The notes beneath the pieces were generated by a model, which saw nothing but the letters and a program-made list of their open reading frames with translations, ran no database searches and had not been told where the DNA came from. DNA of 64,000 nucleotides from Caulobacteraceae bacterium PMMR1. GTDB taxonomy: Bacteria; Pseudomonadota; Alphaproteobacteria; Caulobacterales; Caulobacteraceae. Made by a program: the position numbers and the translations under genes. The stretch is from contig JPOM01000001.1 of the NCBI GenBank assembly GCA_000733915.1, positions 2,170,001 through 2,234,000 on the forward strand. Reading direction: 5' to 3'. Positions 14,039 to 17,055 of the stretch are shown piece after piece; within the stretch, counting starts at the first letter, position 1, and every line of letters starts with the position of its first letter.

Positions 14039-14375
14039 TTAAGCCTTGGTCCACAGCTCGCGTAGGCGGGTGGCGGCGAGCTTGGGACGGCGGTCGCGGG
14101 TGAAGACGCCCTTTTGGTTCAGCCCGCTGACCCGGATGATGCTCTGCGGCGTCTTGAAGTCCGCGAAGGCCCAAGGGTGTCTGCCGACCACGTAGGGGTG
14201 CTTGCGTAGCGTCTCGTAGTAGAGCGCGATCAGCTGCGCCTGATAGTCCTCGATCCACATCTCGGAGGGCTCGGAGTGGGTGCCCGCGATCGCGTCGGCC
14301 CCGAACTGGGTGTAGATTATGGGCTTGTCGCCGTGGCGCGCGCGCAGCGCGGTCACCTCGCGCTCCAAGGTCGCG
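14039..14375 (-). pseudogene. uidA: C-terminal fragment of a GH2 beta-glucuronidase
   Basis: The last 110 or so residues of a frame entering from the DUF1156 gene are those of a family 2 glycoside hydrolase: KPIIYTQFGADAIAGTHSEP (the family's E/T-FGAD block), EMWIEDYQAQLIALYYETLR, then VVGRHPWAFADFKTPQSIIR and LNQKGVFTRDRRPKLAA, ending at TAA 14039. UidA-type enzymes release glucuronic acid. In the first block the acid that serves as nucleophile in relatives (TEFG) reads TQFG, so even the local active site is altered. Only a sixth of the enzyme is left, joined in frame to a DNA methylase at about 14375. Confidence 0.75.
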
Positions 14376-17055
14376 GCGGCCTCCTCGCCGCCGCCGTCCG
14401 GCGCGTTGAGCACGCGGGCGGTGTGCTGGACGCATTCCCAGACCGTCAGGTGCTTGTCGGCGGCGGGCGTCCAGCCGGGCGGCAGCTTGTCGCGGGCGAC
14501 GAGCGCGGCGCGGCCGGACAGATTCTCGAATACGCCCGACTGGAAGAGCGCCCGGTCGGAGGTGTTCTTGGCGGTGGCGAGCGTGATCAGCTCGCCGCTT
14601 GCACGCGCATCGAAGCCGTAGGAGCCGTACCAGGCCAGCGCCACCTGCGTCTCGGCGTCGAACGCAGCGTCGAGCTCGTTTTCGATCTCCTCCCACACGC
14701 GGTTGATCAGCGCGAGCGCGGTCTTGACGGTCATGGCGCTGTCGTCGTCCTCCAGCACCTTGGCGTGGCGGCTGAACACGCCCATGCCGGGGCCGATCAC
14801 CGACTGCTGCATGTCGACGGGGCCGACGCCTGCCTTCCGGATGTTGTCGATCGCGTCGGGGAGTTCGCGCTTGAGGAGCCGCATGAAGTCAGCGCGGGCG
14901 ATCACCGGAGCGTCAGTGGGGCGCTTGCGGCAGACGAGGACGATGGAGGAGGCGAGAGCGTTGGCGTCCTTGGCGATCATGCGGTTGGACAGCTCGGTGC
15001 GAACGGGCCATGTGCCGTCCACGAGCAATCCCGCGTTGAAGACTGCCTGAAGGAATGAAGCCCAACCTGCGGAGGTCACACCTTCCTCGGCAAGCTCGGA
15101 CTGCTTGAAGGCGTAGTAGATTGAGAGGGGTTCGCCGTCCGTCGCGGCCCCCTGCATGGCCGTCAGGGCGGCGCCCATGCCCTTCATGAAAAAGGCTCGG
15201 CCTGATCCTTGCCGCCATGCCGATAAGGTGTCGCGACCAGCTCTGATTCCTTCGGCGTGGTGAGGCGACGAAACAGGTCGGGCCAGATCCCGGCCAGGGA
15301 GCGGCGCAGCCACACATAGAAGAAGTCCGAGAGATCAGCATAGCCGATATTGTCGTAGTAGGGCGGGTCGGTGGAGATGACGACCGAGCGAACTGGAAAG
15401 GAGTTCTTGGCCGCGTCGATGTTGCCAATCGATGCGATTTTCCCACCAAAGCCTTGAGCTTCGACGCTTTCCGCTGTCCACTGCACAGCGCTGGCAAAGC
15501 TTCCCGTTCCATCCAGAAGCGTATTCAATTCTGCAAAGTCCCAGGACATCGCGATCGCTTGACGCGCGAATGTAGGACGAGTGCTGTCGCGCTCTGTAAA
15601 CCAAGTACAGATGGATGATCCTCTGTCGGCCAACTTGCTAAGTGCGAACGCCAGATAGGTCGCCAACGCGTCGGCGTAGGCTTCCGCGCCGGTTCCTCCC
15701 TCGTGGAGGGGCCGAGGGTCGTCGGGGATGTTGGCGGCGCGGGCGTGGGCTAGGGCTTGCTCGCGCGCCTCGGTCACCAAGTCGGAGAAGGTCGTCAGCG
15801 CCACCAACTGCCGCGGCGTGAACAGCGAGGCGAAGGTCTTGAGGCCGTATTGGACGGTCCAGAAGCTCCGCGGATCGTTGGGTAGGTCGCCTTCTGGTTC
15901 CCAACCGGGCTTTGCGGTGGCGGCAAGCGCTCCCTGCTCAGGGGTGGGCGAAAGATAGATGCGGGTGCGCTGCCCCTCCGCGACGATCGCCATCAGGCGC
16001 GCGCCGATCCTCCCAGCCATGCCCTCGGCCTTAACGTGGTCGCCGTCGATCGCGCTGCCGGTCAGGACACAGGTGAAGTTAGACCCGCGCCCAGTTTTCG
16101 TGCCCTTCTTTAGCCGCTCCTCGTCCGCCTTCGACAGCGCCCCCGTACGCACCTCGAATCGCCACCCTTCTGGGGCCGCCGCGTCGATCACCGGCTCCAC
16201 CCAGGCCTTTTTGCCCTCCTTGGTCGAGAGCATGAAGGACGACACCAGCGGCACCATCGCCCCTTTGGCGGCCGGGTCGGGCGAGCGGACGGTGCGCGCC
16301 CATAGCCAAGCGATCACCGTCGCCTTCGAGCCGTCGGGTAAGGTCGCCTTGGGATAGAGATGGCCGATGCGCTTCTCCGCCTCGTCGCGCATCCACTGGC
16401 CGTAGTAGCGCACGTCTTCGGCCAAGCCCTGCGCGCCCTTCCACGCGCGGATTTCGCCGTATGCGGCCTCGGCGCGCGACTTGGGATTGACCGGCGGCTT
16501 GCCGGCGAACTTGGGCGGGATCTCCACCAGCGCCTTGCCGATCAACACCGCCACCGGATTGAGGTCCGAGCCGTAGGCGCGCAGCCCCAGCCGCTGCGCC
16601 TCCAGCGGGATCGAGCCGCCGCCCGAGAACGGATCATAGACCGGCGGCGCCTTGGTCTGCAGATAGTCGAGGATCGCCTGGCCGTCGCCGCGCGCCGGCG
16701 GCTCTTCGCCCAGCCCCCAGGCGACCGACCGCGCGATCTCCCACCGCGCGGCGTTCAGGACCGCTTCGTCGTTCGAGGCCTCCCACGGCGCCATCGCCTC
16801 GATCACCTTGTGCAGCCGGCGCCGCTCGGCCTCCTGCGCCTCTTCGGTCGGGAAGCGGTCGGGCCAGGACGAGGGATCGTCCACCAGCTGAGCGAACAGC
16901 ACCGCCCGGCACGCCGCCAGCGGCCGCCGCGCCCACCACAGGTGGAGCGTCGAGGGATGCCCGTGCCGGATCGACTTTTCCCGCGCCGACGCCGCGTTGA
17001 TCGCCTCCAGCGGGATGGAGACTTCGATGAGCTTCTTGCGAACCGGCGTCGTCAC
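14376..17055 (-). pseudogene. DUF1156 DNA methylase, frameshifted and 3'-truncated
   Basis: ATG 17055 starts MTTPVRKKLIEVSIPLEAIN, the signature start of DUF1156 proteins, followed by WWARRPLAACRAVLFAQLVD, the AdoMet-binding VYDPFSGGGSIPLEAQRLG and the catalytic STDPPYYDNIGYADLSDFFY. These are large putative adenine or cytosine methylases found in defence islands with an SNF2-type helicase and a DUF499 ATPase. At 15195/15196 one base appears lost (GAGCC where GAGGCC would keep the frame), giving an early stop at 15184; the following text (RAFFMKGMGAALTAMQGA onward) is the proper continuation. After RVLNAPDGGGEEAAA, near 14376, the remaining domain is missing and the frame runs into a glycosidase tail. 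Confidence 0.8.

Follow-up and report, generated by a model that had tools for sequence, protein, structure and literature searches.

The window analyzed here, 64,000 nucleotides from Caulobacteraceae bacterium PMMR1, contains a minus-strand reading frame that passes from a DUF1156 methylase into the end of a GH2 beta-glucuronidase. This raises the question of whether such a gene encodes a new kind of protein or is a by-product of gene loss. Our analysis points to the latter, since the locus has the look of an ordinary dead gene in which the in-frame chimera arose by accident. The source genome is a single contig of 2.67 Mb, reported to be 99.91% complete, and is the only genome of its genus in the collection. 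The features on which the argument rests are collected in Table 1.

Table 1. Positions in the window of the joined gene, its neighbor hmaA, and nearby remains of mobile elements
Feature	Position	Strand	Remarks
IS256 transposase C-terminal fragment	9459-9803	(-)	Mobile-element remains
GH2 beta-glucuronidase 3' end	14039-14371	(-)	About 110-112 aa and stop codon; PF02836, NF007538
hmaB/glucuronidase join	14372-14386	(-)	Five codons, EEAAA, resembling both families
hmaB second piece	14387-15193	(-)	About 269 residues, well conserved until the join
A5 homopolymer run	15189-15193	+ strand coordinates	One-base hmaB frame change; three-frame reading
hmaB first piece	15184-17055	(-)	DUF1156 domain and methyltransferase core, 623 aa, early end by frame change; PF06634
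hmaA	17096-20647	(-)	SNF2-type helicase with NOV_C domain, 1183 aa, intact
DUF3363 fragment	20956-21213	(+)	Pfam; remains of mobile element upstream of hmaA
Recombinase zinc-ribbon fragment	21992-22369	(+)	Remains of mobile element upstream of hmaA

A split hmaB and a missing hmaC

The methylase half belongs to Hma, which comprises the helicase HmaA, the methylase HmaB, and the ATPase HmaC and was introduced as a candidate system in the PADLOC paper of 2021 (PMC8565338). In a further paper, Hma is renamed a Type-1 DUF499-centred BREX-related system, and an experimental study is cited there for phage defense by HmaA (PMC12839542). In the close relative Endobacter medicaginis (locus L002), hmaA, hmaB (970 aa), and hmaC (1110 aa) follow each other in this order, nearly abutting, and the product of hmaC contains HEPN_Swt1 and DUF499 (Pfam) and is assigned to HmaC by PADLOC. 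Compared to this system, the locus in the window possesses hmaA and most of hmaB in the same gene order and strand arrangement, with hmaA followed on the minus strand by hmaB in two pieces, but the genome lacks hmaC, and hmaB is split and devoid of its C-terminal ~67 residues, as judged from the alignment with its relatives. The SNF2-type helicase HmaA is present, matching the PADLOC profile with 1560 bits over residues 10-1169 of 1183. A full-length DUF1156 methylase HmaB was not found. Residues 5-622 of the first piece match positions 7-633 of the 967 in the HmaB profile (PADLOC, E 8e-244), and the second piece lies in another frame, in the open reading frame 14039-15313(-), which is usable from about 15193. 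Residues 1-276 of this second piece match positions 633-905, where the profile match stops (E 4e-90), and the protein is HmaB-like until about residue 273.

Our genome-contig scan, in which 44 of the 59 pattern stretches were confirmed (15 through the HmaB part and 29 through the glucuronidase part), provides a measure of how regularly hmaC accompanies hmaB. All 15 hmaB loci among these 44 encode hmaC, and it was also found in each of the six tested Caulobacteraceae genomes having a strong hmaB match. An hmaC query against the window's own genome gave no match, and the same search was positive in the control genomes (6/6). The DUF499 AAA+ ATPase HmaC is thus missing. An earlier reading, made from the sequence only, had pointed out that a DUF499 ATPase often follows such methylases and would have lain in lost DNA; this ATPase is indeed hmaC, which normally follows and is absent from the genome, and it may have lain in a deleted segment.

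The same reading had noted a one-base frameshift in the methylase gene at 15195. The frame change is present, but it is located at the A5 run listed in Table 1. Most hmaB genes of the relatives read through in one frame, and intact copies exist. Programmed frameshifting at the homopolymer run was considered and rejected, because the intact relatives read straight through. In a Nitrobacter MAG, hmaB is likewise split over two frames (L016, 6087-9016). Two further genes in the window show frame changes. The conserved housekeeping tRNA methyltransferase gene trmB (38600-39260 (+)) changes frame at the C6 run 39182-39187 near its 3' end, with the TrmB match ending at 159 of 194 and the remaining protein readable in the next frame, which suggests homopolymer errors in the assembly. 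Type I-G cas3g (2730-5052 (+)) occupies two frames near the G5 run 4461-4465 and was matched only to 798 of 854. Since three frame changes occur near homopolymers, one of them in a conserved housekeeping gene, it is a serious possibility that the hmaB frame change may be a consensus or sequencing error. The window contains 164 homopolymer runs of at least 5, so a nearby run alone is weak evidence.

The join and the glucuronidase tail

Aligned with the HmaB open frames of the fetched loci, excluding one piece each from L016 and L012, the window agrees with them through ...HTARVLNAPDGGGE and diverges thereafter. Aligned with the best 22 glucuronidase matches, it follows ...AAATLEREVTALRARHGDKPIIYT... 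until the stop codon. The methylase and the GH2 tail, each recognized when searched separately, are therefore joined in one frame as originally described, and both homologies are far beyond chance. Because E/D-A-A residues occur here in both families, the join is not placeable closer than five codons. The initial estimate of about 14375 falls inside this interval, but the sequence KPIIYTQ quoted as the start of the glycosidase end begins about 50 bases later, near 14326. Local alignments of L002, L005, and L013 extend beyond the join by 40-50 residues, ending at residues 316-321; these loci were rejected as fused relatives because the multiple alignment shows their tails to be ordinary HmaB.

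The identity of the tail is supported by the beta-glucuronidase profile NF007538, positions 486-597 of 607 of which correspond to second-piece residues 270-383 (E 3e-33), and by PF02836, corresponding to residues 285-383 (E 2e-14). PDB beta-glucuronidases match the second piece with a best E of about 1e-24 and the end piece alone with 4.5e-26. The scrap is of the Caulobacterales/Sphingomonas type and, among the best 22 matches, most similar to those from Phenylobacterium and other Caulobacterales (73-76%), the GH2 beta-glucuronidase of Phenylobacterium aquaticum (L017) being the nearest with 76% over 112 residues. Compared to a GH2 beta-glucuronidase as represented by NF007538 and PF02836, it keeps the last ~112 residues through the stop codon but lacks about 510-584 N-terminal residues and a start of its own. 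The corresponding open frames in the five closest relatives comprise 596-697 aa. Instead of complete sugar-binding, sandwich, and TIM-barrel domains, the scrap has no more than the TIM-barrel end.

The catalytic residue of this remaining part is altered as well. Gln (residue 296, codon 14306-14308) occupies the position of the catalytic Glu in the TEFG/TEYG motif, which is Glu in all 19 other compared sequences and which we take to be the nucleophile E504 of the Escherichia coli enzyme. This Glu-to-Gln change in TEFG is the single departure of the scrap at 40 invariant columns, counted without L034 and the duplicates L052 and L053; intact glucuronidases depart at 0 to 2 of 40-42. In PMC4370192, E413 and E504 are given as catalytic in the E. 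coli beta-glucuronidase. In the second piece of hmaB, no departures were found at 115 columns without variation in the ten closest relatives, the only aligned sequences that entered this count.

How the join may have arisen

We consider it very probable that the locus is a decayed, horizontally acquired Hma locus, in which hmaB was truncated and hmaC was lost. Following the putative acquisition, illegitimate recombination would have joined the broken end of hmaB, in frame by chance, to what was left of a beta-glucuronidase gene at its 3' end. The joining event was likely a deletion. A single deletion would be the most likely course. Its size, estimated from relatives and presupposing a glucuronidase gene formerly situated downstream and oriented alike, would be about 5.0-5.3 kb or more, with 0.2 kb of the hmaB tail, 3.3 kb of hmaC, and 1.5-1.75 kb of the glucuronidase 5' part. 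Deletion-born chimeric pseudogenes occur in decaying genomic islands, and the chimera described here is like them in that two unrelated partial genes are joined and the neighbors are also fragments. We see no notable difference from such cases, an in-frame join being expected by chance one time in three. Since hmaC is gone, hmaB is truncated, and the tail lacks the catalytic residue, neither activity is expected, and we predict that the locus is inactive as a defense system and the tail inactive as a glycosidase.

Two observations weigh against this explanation. The low numbers of departures at invariant columns in both pieces (0/115 and 1/40) give little sign of long decay, and thus the break, judged from these columns, is probably recent. 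Furthermore, hma and glucuronidase genes did not occur together within the fetched flanks in any of the 44 loci, and the genus is represented by one genome, so the deletion itself is unobserved. With no locus possessing hmaABC together with a glucuronidase gene, the intact arrangement, which the sequence-only reading had proposed to look for in relatives in order to measure the deletion, is not measurable. An empty site was not recovered either, as the segment 11500-14040, just downstream of the join, gave only short matches in 41 relatives, mostly to Hsp20 genes.

The statement that a deletion must have produced the chimera is therefore too strong, and a join made during integration fits as well, because a linked ancestor was not found. 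According to this variant of the preferred explanation, which we regard as possible but clearly the less probable, foreign DNA with a partial hma locus integrated into or beside the glucuronidase gene, and hmaC never arrived, so that nothing was deleted here; the locus would be just as dead, and the event would differ. It is favored by the lack of linkage in the 44 loci and by the relationships of the genes. HmaA is 88% identical to that of E. medicaginis, the nearest copy among the fetched loci being this one from Acetobacteraceae, whereas hmaB of other Caulobacteraceae is about 46-51% identical to that of the window. As the scrap is nearest to Caulobacterales, the hmaB and glucuronidase pieces look to be of different origins. 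On the other side, both pieces are alike in GC content (0.67-0.68, compared to 0.733 for 26-64 kb of the window), and no glucuronidase N-terminal part is present beyond hma or elsewhere in the genome. A search for it on the far side of hma and in the rest of the window gave nothing significant, and a full-length glucuronidase query against the own genome recovered the scrap only, the other hits having E values of 0.016 and 0.027 and internal stops. Some loss would thus be needed even if the join was made at integration.

A mis-assembly that brought together two separate places in the genome appears improbable as the origin of the join. The other frame changes in the window, which likewise lie near homopolymers, indicate that the consensus is imperfect, but hmaC and the N-terminal part of the glucuronidase are found nowhere else in this nearly complete single-contig genome, and a misjoin of two places was rejected on this ground. 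A skip of about 5 kb by the assembly within one place is possible.

The least credible alternative is a functional chimera, such as an HmaB carrying a novel C-terminal module: the frame is open across the join and both pieces show few departures at invariant positions, but hmaC is missing, hmaB is cut upstream by the frame change (barring a sequencing error), the tail comprises just a barrel end of about 112 residues in which Gln stands in for the catalytic Glu, and no second example was found in genome contigs, family and class genomes, phages, or the plasmid matches listed (20 of 165). Should the frame change be due to a sequencing error, HmaB and the glucuronidase tail could be made as one long protein. 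It is tempting to speculate that such a HmaB of ~1000 residues with an inactivated glucuronidase tail might act together with HmaA, without the DUF499 ATPase, as a two-protein methylase-helicase unit; we deem this equally far-fetched.

Related proteins with the same fused order had been named in advance as evidence that would overturn the chimera, and the searches for them returned only the locus itself. A second fused protein was not found in the 44 loci of the genome-contig scan. Among 199 family genomes, 61 gave matches (E up to 0.001), and among 385 class genomes 13 did (1e-20), with both halves spanned only in the own genome in either set. Matches were found in 165 plasmid records, none covering 80% of the query among the matches listed (20 of 165). 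Two phage records match the glucuronidase end only, with no fusion, and the exact DNA of the join was not found in viral contigs. A search of the available literature for DUF1156 and glucuronidase together retrieved no paper.

The locus provides a clear case of a three-gene defense locus dying, with the methylase truncated, the ATPase lost, and the helicase still open. It is also a warning that a spurious family of methylase-glycosidase fusions could result from automatic annotation. A wider consequence would arise only if the fusion is expressed.

Surroundings of the locus

The hma locus lies within a low-GC island of mobile-element fragments, in keeping with the proposed horizontal origin. 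Between the outer limits of the DUF3363 and recombinase fragments (20956-22369 (+)), a HigB-type toxin gene with an HTH antitoxin gene was detected (PADLOC PD-Lambda-2_A). On the other side, two Hsp20 genes and an NDUS4 gene (12204-13881 (-)) are arranged in the same order as on the conjugative Sphingobium cloacae plasmid pSCLO_2; this set is a mobile stress cluster beside the hma relic. The IS256 fragment adjoins an NmrA-type gene with its N-terminal part missing and a different short piece at its end (9459-10853 (-)), possibly another chimera. Farther away, the open frames 34926-36914 and 36760-37593 (+) overlap, neither of them having a family match, and appear to be parts of a single protein, separated by a frame change.
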